DNA of 38,199 bases from Deferribacterota bacterium (GTDB lineage Bacteria; Chrysiogenota; Deferribacteres; Deferribacterales; UBA228). The position numbers and the translations under genes were made by a program. The notes under the pieces were generated by a model. It worked only from the letters and a program-made list of their open reading frames with translations. It searched no databases and was not told the origin of the DNA. The DNA is taken from NCBI GenBank assembly GCA_034189185.1, contig JAXHVM010000002.1, forward strand, positions 1 to 38,199. Direction: 5' to 3'. Shown here one piece after another: positions 6,298 through 14,208 of this stretch (position 1 is the stretch's first letter; each line of letters starts with the position of its first letter).

Positions 6298-7076
6298 TTT
6301 ATATTAATTTTTCAGTTATTTTATGTTAAATTTGATATAATTTATCATGTCTCTTGTGAACACAAAAGAAACTAAAATAAATGCAAATGAGTAGTTATGG
6401 TTTTTCCAATATATCAAAATAATTTTTAGGCAACCTTAACATTGAAAAAATTTAGACATAAAAATCACAAAAACTAGATATAAACTTCTATTTATACCAT
6501 CTTTATTTAATACGTTTATAAATTAATTTTTAAATAATAGATTGTATTAAAAATTATCTCTTTATCAGTTTTATGTATATTTATATTACAGAATATTCAA
6601 GAGTGCAAAATTCTCTATCATTTAAATTTAATGTGTATAGCTGATTTTAGATTCCAATTAGACCTAATTCGACAATTTATAAATTATGTATGTAATTTTT
6701 ATAACTATTTCTCTCTTTAATATTATTTATAATATAAAACCCAAAAGGAATTTAAAATAATTTAAAGATACTTTGTTTTAGAATTAATAGATTACAGATG
6801 TTTATATTCAGCTATTCTTAAAATATCAACTAATAATGTTTAATAGAAAATCAATCATCATCTTCAATAAACTATAGATTTAAGAATTCATCTACTATAA
6901 GATGATATTTGAAACTAAGTTCGTATTTTCAAAATTTATCTTACGAATTTTAATTAATTATTTGACTTCAATTAAAAAATTAAATATAATGGTGTTAGTA
7001 ATTCTAAAAAATAGTCTAATGTTTAACGAATTACTTGATAAGTATAATTATATTTTAGAAAAAGGAGGATTTGTAT
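6298..7076. other. Gene-free AT-rich interval upstream of acyl-CoA operon
   Basis: About 780 bases with no convincing coding region on either strand. It is extremely AT-rich and full of stop codons. The only supported elements are the promoter at 6962-6990 and the ribosome site at 7061-7068 near its right end. I found no copy of the tRNA 3' end, no transposase remnant and no clear stem-loop. The single longer reading frame here (from 6902) lacks a ribosome site and runs into the dehydrogenase gene out of frame, so I do not call it. Confidence 0.6.
6962..6990 (+). promoter_or_regulatory. Sigma-70-type promoter of acyl-CoA operon
   Basis: TTGACT (6962-6967) and a perfect TATAAT (6985-6990) are separated by exactly 17 bases, an almost ideal housekeeping promoter. 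Transcription would start near 6997, giving a leader of about 80 bases before the dehydrogenase ATG at 7077. No operator-like inverted repeat is evident beside it. Confidence 0.75.
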
Positions 7077-7844
7077 ATGGAAGTAAAAGGAAGCACTTTT
7101 ATTGTAACAGGTGGCGCCTCTGGATTAGGAGAAGCTACGGTCCGAAGTATCGTGGAAAAAGGTGGCAGGGCTGCCATTTTTGACGTACAAGATGATAAAG
7201 GTAGTAAACTTGCCAAAGAACTTTCAGACAGCACAATATACTGCCACACTGACGTAACTAATGAGGCTCAGGTTCAAGAGAGCATCCAAAAGACATTGGA
7301 TAGTTGCGGAAGTATAAACGGACTGGTAAACTGTGCAGGAATAGCAATAGCTGAAAGGACTGTGAGCAAAAAAGGTCCTATGCTTCTAGATTCTTTCAAC
7401 AAGGTAATACAGGTAAACCTAGTGGGAACATTCAACGTAATCCGTCTTGCAGCAGCTCAAATGATGAACAACACCCCTAATGCTGACGAAGAGCGTGGTG
7501 TTATCATAAACACAGCATCTGTTGCCGCATTTGAAGGCCAAATAGGCCAAGTACCGTACTCAGCATCAAAAGCAGGAATAGTGGGAATGACACTCCCTCT
7601 TGCTAGAGAATTTGCAAGAAGCGGCATCCGAGTTGTCACAATTGCACCTGGACTTTTTGACACTCCCTTATTCTCCTTGCTTCCTGAAAATGCAAGGAAA
7701 TCCCTTGAAGCCCAGCTGCCTTTTCCTGCTAGGTTCGGCCGGCCAAGCGAATACGCTCTCATGGTACAGTGTATTATTGCCAACCCTGTGCTGAACGGGG
7801 AAACCATCCGTCTTGACTCAGCAATACGCATGCAGCCAAAATAG
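7077..7844 (+). CDS. HSD10-like short-chain 3-hydroxyacyl-CoA dehydrogenase
   Basis: NAD-dependent SDR (255 aa) strongly resembling type-2 3-hydroxyacyl-CoA dehydrogenase (HSD17B10), which oxidises 3-hydroxyacyl-CoA and 2-methyl-3-hydroxyacyl-CoA to 3-oxoacyl-CoA. The Rossmann motif VTGGASGLG is at residues 10-18, D36 suggests NAD preference, and LVNCAG is present. The catalytic set is S148, Y161 and K165 within VIINTASVAAFEGQIG and YSASKAG. The C terminus LNGETIRLDSAIRMQP is nearly diagnostic of HSD10. ATG 7077 is chosen because AAAGGAGG lies 8 bases upstream; an in-frame TTG at 7071 is less likely. It is first in the operon. G+C is high (31 of 60 bases at 7681-7740) against about 30% in the rest of the window. 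Confidence 0.92.
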   Translation: MEVKGSTFIVTGGASGLGEATVRSIVEKGGRAAIFDVQDDKGSKLAKELSDSTIYCHTDVTNEAQVQESIQKTLDSCGSINGLVNCAGIAIAERTVSKKGPMLLDSFNKVIQVNLVGTFNVIRLAAAQMMNNTPNADEERGVIINTASVAAFEGQIGQVPYSASKAGIVGMTLPLAREFARSGIRVVTIAPGLFDTPLFSLLPENARKSLEAQLPFPARFGRPSEYALMVQCIIANPVLNGETIRLDSAIRMQPK

Positions 7845-7872: not shown

Positions 7873-8658
7873 ATGACAGAGTATAAAAATATAATATATA
7901 ATAAAAAGGATAACATTGCCACTATAACCCTTAATAGACCTAATGTGCTAAATGCGTTAAATTTTGTATTACTGTCAGAGATACGTGATGCTATCCTTGA
8001 TGCTGAGGGGGATGATAACATCAAAGTCATTGTATTGACTGGTTCTGGCGATAAGGCTTTCTCAGCTGGTGCTGATATCCCTGAAATACTAAAGTTAAGC
8101 CCCATAGAAGCAAAGAATCATGCTTTATCAATCCATGATGTTACCAAACATATGGAGGGAATCAAGAAGCCTATAATAGCCAAAATAAACGGACTTTGCC
8201 TTGGCGGTGGGAATGAGATAGCCATGGCCTGTGACTTCAGAATCGCCTCTGATAACGCAATGTTTGGCCAACCTGAAGTTAATCTTGGTGTTATTCCCGG
8301 CGCTGGAGGAACTCAAAGGCTTACAAGACTTATAGGCAGGACAAAGGCTATGGAAATTGATATGTTAGGCGACATGATTGATGCCAACGAAGCTTACAGT
8401 ATTGGACTATTAAACAAGGTTGTTCCAGCTGACAATTTGGACAGAGCTGTGGATGAGTTTATACAAAAACTTTTGTCAAAAAGCTCTGTCATTCTAGAAA
8501 TAATAAAACTTGCAATAAATAAAGGAATAGAGATGGATCTGGATAAAGCCCTATATTATGAGGCTGAGTGTTTTGGCTCTGCAGCATCAACTGAGGATTT
8601 TAAAGAAGGATTAAGAGCGTTTCAGGAGAAAAGAAAAGCTCAATTTAAAGGGAAATAA
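7873..8658 (+). CDS. Enoyl-CoA hydratase (crotonase family)
   Basis: Crotonase-fold protein (261 aa) that should add water to 2-enoyl-CoA or dehydrate 3-hydroxyacyl-CoA. The oxyanion-hole segment AFSAGADI (about residues 62-69) and GLCLGGGNEIAMACD are intact. Both catalytic acids of true hydratases are present: E115 in GGGNE and E135 in GQPEVNLGVIPGAGGTQRL. That favours a hydratase over a mere crotonase relative. It follows the dehydrogenase by 28 bases with an AAGGAGA ribosome site. It would interconvert enoyl- and 3-hydroxyacyl-CoA for the dehydrogenase; the substrate chain cannot be read from sequence. A methylglutaconyl-CoA-type substrate is conceivable given the HMGS-like neighbour. Confidence 0.92.
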   Translation: MTEYKNIIYNKKDNIATITLNRPNVLNALNFVLLSEIRDAILDAEGDDNIKVIVLTGSGDKAFSAGADIPEILKLSPIEAKNHALSIHDVTKHMEGIKKPIIAKINGLCLGGGNEIAMACDFRIASDNAMFGQPEVNLGVIPGAGGTQRLTRLIGRTKAMEIDMLGDMIDANEAYSIGLLNKVVPADNLDRAVDEFIQKLLSKSSVILEIIKLAINKGIEMDLDKALYYEAECFGSAASTEDFKEGLRAFQEKRKAQFKGK

Positions 8659-8670
8659 AAAGGTAGAATA

Positions 8671-8895
8671 ATTAAAAAGAAGAGTTGCTTAAACTGTAAA
8701 TATTACATGTTAGGGGAAAAAGAAGAAAGGAATAGAATTGCTTTTGATTTTTGCGTTAAAACTAAAAAAAATCTACCAACAGCTGCATTTTCCTATAATG
8801 ATGTTTGTTGTGGAAATACAAGATGTTTTAATGTAGCAGCCTTTCGTTGTTTAGAGGAAATCGCGGAAGTCTGTAAATATTATGAGGTGAAATAA
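8671..8895 (+). CDS. Small Cys-rich protein of unknown function
   Basis: I do not recognise this protein. From the first ATG (8707) it has 62 residues, but the frame stays open upstream to a stop at 8656, adding IKKKSCLNCKYY. The extension supplies a CxxC pair, bringing the total to eight Cys: CLNC, one C in DFCVK, CC in VCCGN, then single C in TRCF, FRCL and VCKYY. The ATG at 8707 lacks a ribosome site, whereas AAAGGT lies before ATA/ATT codons at 8668-8673, so a non-standard start is possible; I set the start at ATT 8671. The Cys spacing suggests a zinc or iron-sulphur site. The stop overlaps the next gene's ATG by one base, implying coupling. Base composition is low (17 and 18 G+C in the two lines from 8701), unlike its neighbours. 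Confidence 0.55.
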   Translation: MKKKSCLNCKYYMLGEKEERNRIAFDFCVKTKKNLPTAAFSYNDVCCGNTRCFNVAAFRCLEEIAEVCKYYEVK

Positions 8896-10352
8896 TGGCA
8901 GGAATAATTTCTTATGGCAGTTATGTGCCACGTTACCGGTTAAACCGCAACCTGATATACCAGGCTATGGGCTGGATGAATCCTGCAAACATTCTAAATG
9001 CAAGCGGCGAGAAAGCGGTTGCAAATTTTGACGAAGATTCAATCACCATGGCTGTGGCAGCCAGTATGAACGCCTTGAGGGATATGGACCGTCAAAGTGT
9101 AGAAGGTGTATATTTTGCATCAACTACAATGCCTTACAAAGAAAGGCTTAATGCGGGGATTATAGTAGCTGCTCTTGGCTTAAACGATCAGATAAGAGCT
9201 GCTGATTTTTCTGGGGGCATAAAGTGCGGAACTACAGCCTTCCTTGCAGCCCTTGAAGGCGTGGAATCAAAGAGAGTAAACAATATTGTTGTAACTGCAT
9301 CGGATACCAGGCTGGGCAAACCAGCTTCCGCTCAGGAGCTGATCTTTGGGGATGCAGGTGCTTCAGTAATTATTGGTACTGATAATGTAATTGCTGAAGC
9401 AAAAGATTCCTATTCTGTAACCTACGATTTTGTTGATCATTTCAGGGGAGAATTTGCCAGGTATGATCGGCAGTGGGAAGATAGGTGGATACGCGATCTT
9501 GGATATATGGATATTTTACCCGAGGCTGTTGAAGGTCTTTTAAAAAAAACAGGTCTTAAGATATCTGACTTTACAAAAATAATCTACCCCTGCCACTATA
9601 GTGGAGCAAGAAAGGCCATTAATAAGAAACTTGGCATTTCGTCTGAGACAGAACAAGACAACCTTCAACAGCAAGTGGGAGAGACTGGAAGCCCCCACAC
9701 ATTACTTATGCTGACAGGCGCTCTTGAAAATTCCTCTCCAGGAGATAAGATTCTACTTGTTAGCTTTGGCTCTGGTTGTGATGCCATTTACCTTGAGGTA
9801 ACAGAAAATATAAAGAACCTTCCAAAAAGATATGGCCTTTCAAGAAGCCTCTCCAATAGAGCTGAGCTTAACAACTATACCAAGTACCTTGTCTGGCGGG
9901 ATACCCTTCCTGCGGATGCAGGACTTCGTTCCGAAGAAGACAAGTGGACCCGATGGTCTCAGCTCTGGAGAATGAGGCGTGAAATCCTCGGGCTGTGGGG
10001 AGTAAGATGCAAAAAGTGTGGAACAGTTCAATACCCAACACAGAGTGTTTGTGTTAATCCAAAATGCGGCGCAATAGGTGAAATGGAGCCCTACTGTTTT
10101 TCGGATAAAGTAGGCCATATAGTGAGCTTTACCGGAGACAACCTTGCTGCCTCACTTAATCCACCTGCCATTTACGGCCAGGTGATATTTGAGAATGGAG
10201 GTAAATACATGTTTGATTTTACAGACTGCGACCTAGAAAGCCTTTCAACCGGAATGAGTGTTGAGATGAGCTTCAGGCGGAAGTACCGGGACTATAAAAG
10301 GGATATTTCTGGTTATTTCTGGAAAGCAGTGCCAATCAATAAGGAGGTATAA
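8895..10352 (+). CDS. HMG-CoA-synthase-like protein fused to DUF35 domain
   Basis: Residues 1 to about 320 form a thiolase-fold synthase of the archaeal HMG-CoA synthase type. They show GIISYGSYVPRYRL, the acyl-accepting Cys C111 in GGIKCGTTAF, H234 in YPCHYSG, and GETGSPHTLLMLTGALE. Residues from about 365 on form a DUF35 unit: a zinc ribbon (C372, C375, C386, C391) followed by an OB fold (IVSFTGDNLAASLNPPAIYGQVIFENGG). In archaea, synthase and DUF35 protein are separate subunits of a complex with thiolase; here they are fused (485 aa). The position that holds the catalytic Glu in archaeal enzymes (SES before HPY) appears to be T77 in ASTTMPY, from remembered family sequence. So whether it makes HMG-CoA is uncertain. 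An AGGTGA ribosome site precedes ATG 8895. Confidence 0.85.
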   Translation: MAGIISYGSYVPRYRLNRNLIYQAMGWMNPANILNASGEKAVANFDEDSITMAVAASMNALRDMDRQSVEGVYFASTTMPYKERLNAGIIVAALGLNDQIRAADFSGGIKCGTTAFLAALEGVESKRVNNIVVTASDTRLGKPASAQELIFGDAGASVIIGTDNVIAEAKDSYSVTYDFVDHFRGEFARYDRQWEDRWIRDLGYMDILPEAVEGLLKKTGLKISDFTKIIYPCHYSGARKAINKKLGISSETEQDNLQQQVGETGSPHTLLMLTGALENSSPGDKILLVSFGSGCDAIYLEVTENIKNLPKRYGLSRSLSNRAELNNYTKYLVWRDTLPADAGLRSEEDKWTRWSQLWRMRREILGLWGVRCKKCGTVQYPTQSVCVNPKCGAIGEMEPYCFSDKVGHIVSFTGDNLAASLNPPAIYGQVIFENGGKYMFDFTDCDLESLSTGMSVEMSFRRKYRDYKRDISGYFWKAVPINKEV

Positions 10353-10354
10353 TT

Positions 10355-11560
10355 ATGGCTGATGGTATTAAAGATAAGGTTGCAATTCTGGGAATGGGAT
10401 GTACAAAGTTTGGGGAGCGATGGGAATCAAGCGAACAGGATTTAATACTTGAATCCTTTATTGAATGCATAGAAGACGCGGGCATTGAAAAAAAAGACAT
10501 CCAGGCTGCTTATTTCGGAACACACATAGACGAGATAAATGTGGGAAAGGGTGGTAACCCCCTAGCAGAAACACTCCATCTTCCTTATATACCTGTTACA
10601 AGAACAGAAAATTACTGTGCAACAGCTACTGAAGCCCTAAGAGCTGCATGTTATTCTGTTGCAGCCGGTGCTTACGATATTGTGCTAGCACTTGGAGCTG
10701 AAAAGCTAAAGGATACAGGCTACGGTGGTCTCCCCGAAGGAGCAGCCTTCGGCACTGAAATGCTCATGCGGGGAGCAAATGCAACAGCACCAGGTTTGTT
10801 TGCTCAACTAGCCACCGCATATGCCGCCAAGCATAAAATTCCAATGGATAAGTTAAAAGATGCTATGGCCCATATATCTGAGAAAAGTCATGCAAACGGG
10901 GCGCTTAATCCTAAGGCTCACTTGCGTAAAGCGGTAACCGCTGAGCAGATTAAAGCAGCACCCATGATTGCTTACCCTTTGGGGCTTTTTGACTGCTGCG
11001 GAGTAAGTGATGGTTCTGCAGCAGCTATTGTAACCACACCAGAAATTGCAAAAAGCCTTAAGAAAAACCAGGGGATAATTACTATCAAAGCCCTACAAAT
11101 AGCTGTGAGCTCAGGTGAAGAGGCGCTTTACACCGAATGGGACAATGCACATCTTGTTACTACAAGAGTAGCCGCCTCAAAAGCCTATAAAGAGGCGGGA
11201 ATAAAAAACCCGCGTGAGGAAGTCAGCATGATGGAAGTACATGACTGTTTTTCCATCACTGAGCTCATTACAATGGAAGATCTCCACATATCACCCAAAG
11301 GTGGAGCTTATGATGATGTTATGAGTGGGTTCTACGATCTTGACGGCTACATCCCCTGCCAGGTGGACGGCGGGCTTAAGTGCTTCGGTCACCCCATAGG
11401 TGCGTCCGGACTAAGGATGCTTTATGCAATATATGAACAACTCCTCGAACGAGTACCCGAAGAGAGAAAGGTTAAGCGGCTGAAGTACGGGCTTACGCAT
11501 AACTTAGGCGGTGCACCAATGAGAAATGTTGTTTCTGTTGCCATAATTGGAAGAGAATAA
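10355..11560 (+). CDS. SCP2-type thiolase (acetyl-CoA acetyltransferase family)
   Basis: Thiolase-superfamily enzyme (401 aa) of the SCP2/archaeal subtype, which condenses or cleaves 3-oxoacyl-CoA. C88 in ENYCATATEALRAA is the nucleophile, H296 sits in MMEVHDCFSITE, and H346 in CFGHPIGASGLR. The second Cys of classical thiolases is replaced by THNLGGAPMRN, as in DUF35-partnered thiolases. In archaea such proteins form a complex with HMG-CoA synthase and DUF35; the benzoylsuccinyl-CoA thiolase BbsAB also pairs a thiolase with a DUF35 subunit. It starts 3 bases after the fusion gene with AAGGAGGT upstream. Its 3' part is very G+C-rich (38 of 60 bases at 11341-11400). It ends the operon. Confidence 0.9.
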   Translation: MADGIKDKVAILGMGCTKFGERWESSEQDLILESFIECIEDAGIEKKDIQAAYFGTHIDEINVGKGGNPLAETLHLPYIPVTRTENYCATATEALRAACYSVAAGAYDIVLALGAEKLKDTGYGGLPEGAAFGTEMLMRGANATAPGLFAQLATAYAAKHKIPMDKLKDAMAHISEKSHANGALNPKAHLRKAVTAEQIKAAPMIAYPLGLFDCCGVSDGSAAAIVTTPEIAKSLKKNQGIITIKALQIAVSSGEEALYTEWDNAHLVTTRVAASKAYKEAGIKNPREEVSMMEVHDCFSITELITMEDLHISPKGGAYDDVMSGFYDLDGYIPCQVDGGLKCFGHPIGASGLRMLYAIYEQLLERVPEERKVKRLKYGLTHNLGGAPMRNVVSVAIIGRE

Positions 11561-12029: not shown

Positions 12030-13244
12030 TTATTTATCAGTAAATTGTAATGTTTCATAATGCTTTTTTACTTTTGCAAAAGCATCTAACGCCCTTTCAA
12101 GTTGTTCTTCAGTATGAGTAGCCATCACACTTGTTCTAAGCAAAGATCTACCAGGTGGAACAGCAGGTGGAACTACTGGATTTACAAATATCCCAAGTTC
12201 TTCTAGATGTTTGCATATTTCATATGTTTTTTCTTCGTCTCCAATAATCACAGGCACTATAGGTGTAGAACTTTTACCTATATCGTAACCCAAACTTTTT
12301 AAACCCTCCAACCAAAATTCTGTATTTTTCCACAATCTTTCTCTTCTTTCAGGCTCATTATCAATAATTTCAAAAGCTTTTTTTGCGGCAGCGACAAGAG
12401 CAGGTGGTAAACTTGCACTAAAAAGCATTGATCTACCCACATGTTTAATAAATTCAATAACTTCTTTATTTGATGCAATAAAACCACCAATAGTTGCTAG
12501 TGACTTGCTAAATGTTCCCATTATAATATCTGCCTCATCCATTAAATTATAGTATTCTGCAACACCACGGCCCCCATCACCTAATACTCCTATACCATGT
12601 GCATCATCAACCATAACCCTAGTAGAGTATTTCTTAGCTAATGAGATTATAGATGGCAAATCTGCCAAATCACCCTCCATGCTAAAAACGCCATCAACAA
12701 TTATCAATTTCTCTCTGTTTATATTACAATGTAATAATAATTCAAGGGCACGCATATCATTGTGAGGATATCTTTTAAAATCGTTTTGCGCTAGCTTACA
12801 TCCATCTATAATACTCGCATGATCATATTTATCTAATATTGCCAGTGGACGGCTATCCAAAGGATTGCCATTTAGTAAAGCCTGTAAAGCTCCTAAATTC
12901 GCTTGCATTCCAGTTGCAAAAACTAGAGCTGCCTCTTTAGAAAAAAAGTTGGCTATTGTAGCCTCTAATTCTTCATGCAGCTCAGTAGATCCATTGAGCA
13001 ACCTGCTACCAGCGCATCCAGTTCCATAAGTCTTTATTGCATTAATCGCTGCTTCTTTAACCATTTCATTCTCTGTTAAACCCAAATAATTGTTTGACCC
13101 TAACATAATAAATTTCTTACCATTAATAACAACCTCGGGCCCTTGTATTGAAGACAACTTCCTATAGTAAAAATATTTATTTGCCTTTTTTAATTCCTCA
13201 ACTTTGTAACTAAATTGATAACATTTTTTAAATATATCTCCCAT
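12030..13244 (-). CDS. Serine palmitoyltransferase-like alpha-oxoamine synthase
   Basis: PLP enzyme of the alpha-oxoamine synthase family, which condenses an amino acid with an acyl thioester and releases CO2. Family members include serine palmitoyltransferase (SPT), BioF and KBL. Motifs: GSNNYLGL (residues 49-56), GTGCAGSRLLNGSTELHEELE, DKYDHASIIDGC, DDAHGIGVLG with D213/H216, and the PLP lysine K247 in GTFSKSLATIGG. The stretches RRERLWKN and FVNPVVPPAVPPGRSLLRTSVMATHT match bacterial SPT better than BioF or KBL, from remembered sequences. At 404 aa the length fits. It begins one base after the epimerase stop, with AGGTGG upstream, so the two form an operon. A long-chain 3-ketosphinganine-type product is plausible; BioF or an alkylketone role is the alternative. 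Confidence 0.85.
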   Translation of the reverse strand: MGDIFKKCYQFSYKVEELKKANKYFYYRKLSSIQGPEVVINGKKFIMLGSNNYLGLTENEMVKEAAINAIKTYGTGCAGSRLLNGSTELHEELEATIANFFSKEAALVFATGMQANLGALQALLNGNPLDSRPLAILDKYDHASIIDGCKLAQNDFKRYPHNDMRALELLLHCNINREKLIIVDGVFSMEGDLADLPSIISLAKKYSTRVMVDDAHGIGVLGDGGRGVAEYYNLMDEADIIMGTFSKSLATIGGFIASNKEVIEFIKHVGRSMLFSASLPPALVAAAKKAFEIIDNEPERRERLWKNTEFWLEGLKSLGYDIGKSSTPIVPVIIGDEEKTYEICKHLEELGIFVNPVVPPAVPPGRSLLRTSVMATHTEEQLERALDAFAKVKKHYETLQFTDK

Positions 13245-13245
13245 A

Positions 13246-14208
13246 TCACAACCACCTATTTGATTTATACCATTCTAATGTTAAATCTAAGCCTTTGTCT
13301 AAATCATAGACTGGATTATACCCTATAATATTTTTTAAATCGCTAATATCACAGAACCAACTTTTTTTAAATATTTCTTTTATTTTGTCAATAGTTAAAA
13401 TTGAAGGTTTTTTTCTAAAGTAGTTTAATAGTGTATTAACTGCTGCAGCAACGTAAACAAAAAATTTTGGAATATAAACAAACCTTGGCTTAATATCCAT
13501 TTTTTTAGAAAGAGTCTTTACAACATCATCCCATAAATATTTTTTCCCGTCTGAAGCTATGACAATACCCCTAATATTATTCTCTTTCTCCAATAATAGC
13601 AATAATATATTAACTAAATCAACTATAAATATAAAGGAATAAAAACTATTTTTATTCAAAATAGGGCCATAGCCATTTTTTACAAATTTAAAATATTTTA
13701 ACAATTCCCTTTCACCAGGGCCATAAACAGCTGTTGGTCTAACAATAATAATTGGAAAGTTTGCACTATATTTCAATAAATGATATTCAGCCAATAATTT
13801 ACTTTTAGCATAGTGTGTTTTTGGATTCTCAGTTGTATCAAAAGAAATAATCTCTTCTTCACCCCCATTAATAGCGAGAGTAGATAAAAAAAAGAAACCC
13901 TTCAACTTATTTTTCTGCTTTAAAATATTGCGTACAAGATTAACAGTGCCAATGTAATTAACATCATAGAATTCTCTATAATTTTTTGCCTTAACTACCC
14001 CTGCAATGTGATAAACATAGTCAACTTCTGGCAATTTCAAATTACTATCCGTTAAATCCCCTTTTACAATTTCTACAGTTTCATTATGTGTTTCTAATTT
14101 TGAGGGATCTCTCACTAAGGCATACAATTTGTACCCTTTAGGTTGCAATGCCTCCAATAGATTGCTACCTATAAACCCACTAGCACCTGTTATAAGTATT
14201 CTCTTCAA
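13246..14208 (-). CDS. NAD-dependent epimerase/dehydratase-family protein, CerR-like
   Basis: Extended SDR protein (320 aa). The dinucleotide motif GASGFIG is at residues 8-14, and HIAGVVKAKNYREFYDVNYIGTVNLV follows. The catalytic pair Y133/K137 is in THYAKSKLLAE, and IIVRPTAVYGPGE is typical of the family. The start codon is TTG at 14208, with AAGGA 8 bases upstream. Because it is followed at once by the SPT-like gene, it resembles CerR, the epimerase-family ceramide reductase described beside spt in Caulobacter. On this reading it would reduce the 3-oxo group of the sphingoid product. The sequence alone cannot exclude a sugar-nucleotide or sterol-type substrate. Confidence 0.8.
   Translation of the reverse strand: MKRILITGASGFIGSNLLEALQPKGYKLYALVRDPSKLETHNETVEIVKGDLTDSNLKLPEVDYVYHIAGVVKAKNYREFYDVNYIGTVNLVRNILKQKNKLKGFFFLSTLAINGGEEEIISFDTTENPKTHYAKSKLLAEYHLLKYSANFPIIIVRPTAVYGPGERELLKYFKFVKNGYGPILNKNSFYSFIFIVDLVNILLLLLEKENNIRGIVIASDGKKYLWDDVVKTLSKKMDIKPRFVYIPKFFVYVAAAVNTLLNYFRKKPSILTIDKIKEIFKKSWFCDISDLKNIIGYNPVYDLDKGLDLTLEWYKSNRWL

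Follow-up and report, generated by a model that had tools for sequence, protein, structure and literature searches.

In the DAPG acyltransferase PhlABC (PDB 5m3k, 9skh), the 3-hydroxy-3-methylglutaryl-CoA synthase (HMGS)-like subunit PhlA lacks the catalytic Cys and Glu, all three subunits are required, and only PhlC acts (PMC6392133). In the related CsATase, the PhlC C88S variant is inactive (PMC12955522). DUF35 proteins hold such complexes together (PMC12329534). Other described assemblies are the archaeal thiolase/HMGS complex (PDB 6esq), whose HMGS is active (Glu82, Cys114 and His), the multi-component acyltransferase MucABC (PDB 9vbo), and the benzoylsuccinyl-CoA thiolase BbsAB (PDB 7pxp), in which a degradative SCP2-type thiolase has a DUF35 partner.

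Here we describe a 38,199-nucleotide stretch of a Deferribacterota genome (contig JAXHVM010000002.1, hereafter the window) in which an HMGS-like domain and a DUF35 module form one chain, encoded beside a thiolase (Table 1). We consider it probable that this fusion is a catalytically dead pseudo-HMGS/DUF35 scaffold that assembles with the downstream SCP2-type thiolase, with only the thiolase being catalytic. As in PhlABC, three components are encoded together: an HMGS-like one with a dead site that has lost both Glu and Cys, a DUF35 one, and a thiolase-like one with an intact site. PhlABC, however, consists of three separate proteins and carries out a CoA-independent biosynthetic C-acylation, whereas here the HMGS-like and DUF35 parts share a chain in a beta-oxidation setting. 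The lost Glu, Cys and His columns also differ, reading Thr, Ile and Pro in the fusion and, in our alignment, Cys, Gly and Gln in PhlA.

The archaeal complex contains the same three folds, its chains 6esq_E and 6esq_A being closest to the DUF35 part and the thiolase, respectively, but there the HMGS site is retained and DUF35 is not fused. In MucABC, the HMGS-like subunit reads Cys and Glu at the Glu and Cys columns; unlike here, the subunits are separate, and the match is more distant (E=2e-13). BbsAB resembles the locus through its thiolase (E=7e-36) and, weakly, its DUF35 partner (E=0.64), whereas no HMGS-like chain of the BbsAB complex was matched. Our open-access literature search found nothing on an HMGS-like/DUF35 fusion, which does not prove that the fusion is unpublished.

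Table 1. Features of the locus, in window coordinates.
Feature	Position	Strand	Details
Short-chain dehydrogenase; may be the 3-hydroxyacyl-CoA dehydrogenase of this gene run	7071..7844	+	Pfam adh_short, E=2e-47
Enoyl-CoA hydratase/isomerase family protein	7873..8658	+	Pfam ECH_1, E=7e-74
HMGS-like/DUF35 fusion ORF	8895-10352	+	485 aa; ORF confirmed
HMG-CoA-synthase-like (thiolase-superfamily) domain without catalytic residues	8895..9902	+	Residues 1-336; matches to NCBIfam PRK04262, PDB 6esq_I and PhlA (5m3k/9skh)
T77, in the column of the catalytic Glu (archaeal Glu82)	9123..9125	+	Alignment; Thr in 90/90 relatives
I109, in the acyl-Cys column (archaeal Cys114)	9219..9221	+	Alignment
C111, acyl-Cys of the earlier note	9225..9227	+	Unconserved among relatives
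P232, in the column of the catalytic His; H234 is two residues further on	9588..9590	+	Alignment
DUF35-type zinc ribbon and OB fold	9963..10349	+	Residues 357-485; Pfam PF12172, PDB 6esq_E
SCP2-type thiolase, probable catalytic partner	10355..11560	+	NCBIfam PRK06157; catalytic residues present

Domains and fold of the fusion

Against the curated HMGS models PRK04262 (NCBIfam) and TIGR00748, the fusion scores 228 and 174 bits, under the respective cut-offs of 244 and 353. In the DUF35 part, Pfam PF12172 reaches 31.1 bits, above its cut-off of 23.2, while PF01796 stays at 23.0 bits, under its cut-off of 27.1; the OB domain is supported by the match to PDB 6esq_E (E=1.3e-14). The fused zinc ribbon recognized in the earlier note is present and conserved. 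Among the 90 relatives compared (69 short forms and 21 long forms), its ligands C372, C375, C386 and C391 are kept in 68/68 short forms whose sequence covers this region and in 21/21 long forms. The fusion carries both DUF35 domains together with these four cysteines.

An AlphaFold2 model of the fusion (mean pLDDT 83.8, pTM 0.88) has the HMGS/KAS III fold, with 6esq_I as the best structural match (TM to target 0.91), followed by PhlA (about 0.87) and the MucABC subunit. Residue positions in the fusion are taken from sequence alignment and not from model coordinates.

Catalytic columns of the HMGS-like domain

HMMER and MAFFT alignments agree on the active-site columns. In a gap-free stretch, GSESHPY of archaeal HMGS (6esq_I) pairs with ASTTMPY of the fusion, with residues S76-T77-T78-M79-P80-Y81 confirmed, and T77 falls on the catalytic Glu. 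The replacement of this Glu by Thr had been proposed in the earlier note, which named alignment with archaeal HMGS as a check; the column holds no conserved Glu and is Thr in 90/90 relatives. The same note took C111 as the acyl-Cys and H234 as the catalytic His, and both assignments failed. The archaeal catalytic Cys (FACKAGT) pairs with I109, and C111 pairs with the Ala of CKAGT; the archaeal catalytic His (VFHQP) pairs with P232, and H234 pairs with the next Pro. The Asn of GNTYSG corresponds to E263.

The Cys column contains Leu, Ile or Gln across the 90 relatives, with Leu or Ile in every short form but one and Gln in 20/21 long forms (e.g. L083, L085, L090). The His column contains Pro, Asp, Gln, Ala or Ser. 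The three catalytic columns are free of Glu, Cys and His in all 90 relatives, the Asn is likewise lost in 90/90, and Glu, Cys and His are also absent from 16 more distant fusions (L106-L121) fetched separately. Because no relative has these residues in the catalytic columns, a two-residue alignment shift cannot rescue the triad. An active site shifted to C111 and H234 was rejected, as neither residue is conserved: at the C111 position the 69 short forms have Ala (44), Ser (20), Cys (4) or Gly (1), at the H234 position 42 of them have His, and none of the 21 long forms has Cys or His at the respective position. On these alignments, the catalytic loss is more complete than the earlier note supposed, and the fusion is probably not an HMG-CoA synthase.

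A functional HMGS of the mevalonate pathway or of ketogenesis, working with unusual catalytic residues, is what the nearest curated models would suggest, and it would account for the overall likeness to archaeal HMGS and for gene partners like those of the archaeal complex. We regard it as extremely improbable, as the catalytic residues are gone in all relatives, the fusion having T77, I109 and P232 in place of Glu, Cys and His, its scores lie under the curated HMGS cut-offs, and its gene context is one of beta-oxidation. Additionally, an unfused HMGS in the source genome (L003/L055), adjoining a thiolase, keeps all residues (SES, FACKAGS, FHQP), and therefore an HMGS with an intact active site is available elsewhere in that genome. 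The distinction matters for annotation: the nearest curated models name homologues HMG-CoA synthase, from which a false mevalonate step could be inferred.

The former active-site columns, picked by hand, have an entropy of 0.82 bits against a domain average of 1.25 bits, and only 8 of 10,000 random sets were as low. Because these columns are more conserved than the domain, their constraint argues that the cavity still matters, whether it now walls the thiolase pocket or forms a new site. It also counts against the preferred reading of the fusion as a scaffold, being more than a purely structural role need require. Seven residues, H182, D191, W194, E195, W198, R200 and D201, are invariant and specific to the fusion family, and might point to a newly acquired site for binding or catalysis.

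These features, the stronger constraint on the old cavity wall and the several charged or aromatic residues invariant in the fusion family only, would also suit an HMGS-like domain that has gained a new activity in the old cavity, such as hydrolysis, decarboxylation or a lyase step, with non-classical residues. In the same direction, 47/50 sequences keep Cys at C233, which adjoins the His column, and the Gln at the Cys column of most long forms recalls KSQ decarboxylases. Gln at the acyl-Cys site is a feature of KSQ domains and decarboxylases, but KSQ-type decarboxylation requires an active-site His, which is absent here. Moreover, the Gln is missing from the protein encoded in the window, and the intact neighbouring thiolase is enough for the expected step. 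A new activity is unlikely in our judgement; the conserved old site may have a ligand-binding role, with a new activity the less likely of the two.

The thiolase partner and its gene neighbourhood

The downstream thiolase scores 648.6 bits against NCBIfam PRK06157, above the cut-off of 403, and its catalytic residues C88, H296/C298 (HDCF), H346 (GHP) and N383 are invariant in 38 sequences. Its identification as BbsB was rejected on score (132 bits against a cut-off of 750). The earlier note placed a thiolase 3 bases downstream; the ORF does adjoin the fusion, at a gap of 2 bases (stop codon ending at 10352, ATG at 10355). A thiolase lies directly 3' of the fusion in all loci whose sequence extends far enough (47/47), in most cases at a spacing of 0-3 bases; this count includes L028, where the genes overlap by 67 bases. 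Genes often found near the fusion in relatives encode acyl-CoA dehydrogenases, an MFE-2-type (MaoC) hydratase, an SDR, enoyl-CoA hydratase, 3-hydroxyacyl-CoA dehydrogenase and a TetR regulator.

The loss of catalytic residues, the conserved fusion, the constant adjacency of an intact thiolase and the beta-oxidation gene context are direct observations. We propose that the fusion and the thiolase form a PhlABC-like or archaeal-type complex in which DUF35 would bridge the two thiolase-fold subunits and help to make a CoA/acyl tunnel, while the dead HMGS cavity may line the acyl pocket or help to give it its shape. Beta-oxidation would run through the dehydrogenase and the enoyl-CoA hydratase encoded upstream and end at the thiolase, whose step would be the thiolysis of a 3-ketoacyl-CoA that is probably bulky or unusual. 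The earlier note had suggested a repurposed synthase; its option of a scaffold acting with the thiolase is the better supported one, and a Claisen or retro-Claisen enzyme acting through C111 and H234 is unsupported, since both lie in the wrong columns and are unconserved.

Steroid aldolases, too, have DUF35 partners (PMC12329534), and PhlABC and MucABC are acyltransferases, so that the complex could instead be a retro-aldolase or a biosynthetic acyltransferase, like Ltp2/Sal-DUF35 or PhlABC, and not a thiolase. We judge this very unlikely. The partner keeps the nucleophilic Cys88, which is Gly in Sal, and has HDCF where the aldolases have YDHF or YDCY, and the neighbours are fatty-acid-type beta-oxidation genes, which speaks against either enzyme. 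If the fusion is indeed a scaffold for a thiolase, it would take the pseudo-HMGS/DUF35/thiolase architecture beyond biosynthetic acyltransferases and into degradation. The fused proteins would also make substrate hand-over in DUF35 complexes, described as an open question (PMC12329534), testable.

A 62-aa cysteine-rich ORF (CCGNTRC; 8707-8895, + strand) precedes the fusion, its stop codon overlapping the fusion ATG (TAATG); it had no NCBIfam match. Several relatives (L006, L009, L027, L029, L032, L036, L040 and L053) have another, different protein here, about 110 aa long and carrying the motif CCGxxG. Promoter and terminator scans gave signals near chance level. Farther downstream, at 12030-14208 (- strand), a serine-palmitoyltransferase/BioF-like enzyme (503 bits against a cut-off of 640) adjoins an NAD-dependent epimerase.

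Relatives, long forms and origin

One scan of genome contigs returned 49 loci, whose titles are mostly Desulfobacterales, Desulfobacteraceae or Deltaproteobacteria, plus a few Actinomycetota; the dead fusion is common across sulfate reducers. Of 291 genomes sampled from the class to which Desulfatibacillum alkenivorans belongs, 100 had matches. By our own tally of the table, about 65 of these matches fall in open frames some 700-960 residues long. No match above the archaeal HMGS cut-off was found in 97 genomes (0/97).

L083 (1501-4236, about 910 aa), the sole long form scanned with Pfam, combines HMGS-like, DUF35, SDR and SCP2 domains in one chain, a set that recalls peroxisomal MFE-2 with a thiolase scaffold added to it. 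L063 and L065 contain homologues of similar size (about 910 aa); going by length only, we take the other long forms to share this architecture. In L096, L097, L099, L101, L102 and L104, the long form likewise has a thiolase encoded after it. As a possibility that we advance tentatively, short of expecting it, a large bacterial family of dead, DUF35-fused HMGS may provide the obligatory scaffold or substrate-guiding chamber of an anaerobic beta-oxidation thiolase, one lineage being also fused to the substrate-making dehydrogenase, such that the 3-ketoacyl-CoA would be passed on inside one assembly.

In an unrooted tree, one branch (support 96/86) separates all fusions from intact HMGS and PhlA. 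This would be compatible with independent losses in PhlA and in the fusions, provided that their ancestor was active. The copy in the window clusters with Desulfobacterales copies (81-83% identity), and among the relatives searched no other genome of the source's order has a copy. GC content is 38-46% in the gene run and 27-35% in the remaining window genes that were measured. Because of this grouping, the absence from the order-mates searched and the GC contrast, horizontal transfer of the gene run is likely.

The source genome encodes a second fusion (L002/L054), beside a thiolase and a 3-hydroxyacyl-CoA dehydrogenase, and this copy also lacks the catalytic residues. The region around it (L054, 1-14335) contains, by eye, two acyl-CoA dehydrogenases, several AMP-ligases and an enoyl-CoA hydratase, and reads as an acid-degradation cluster.
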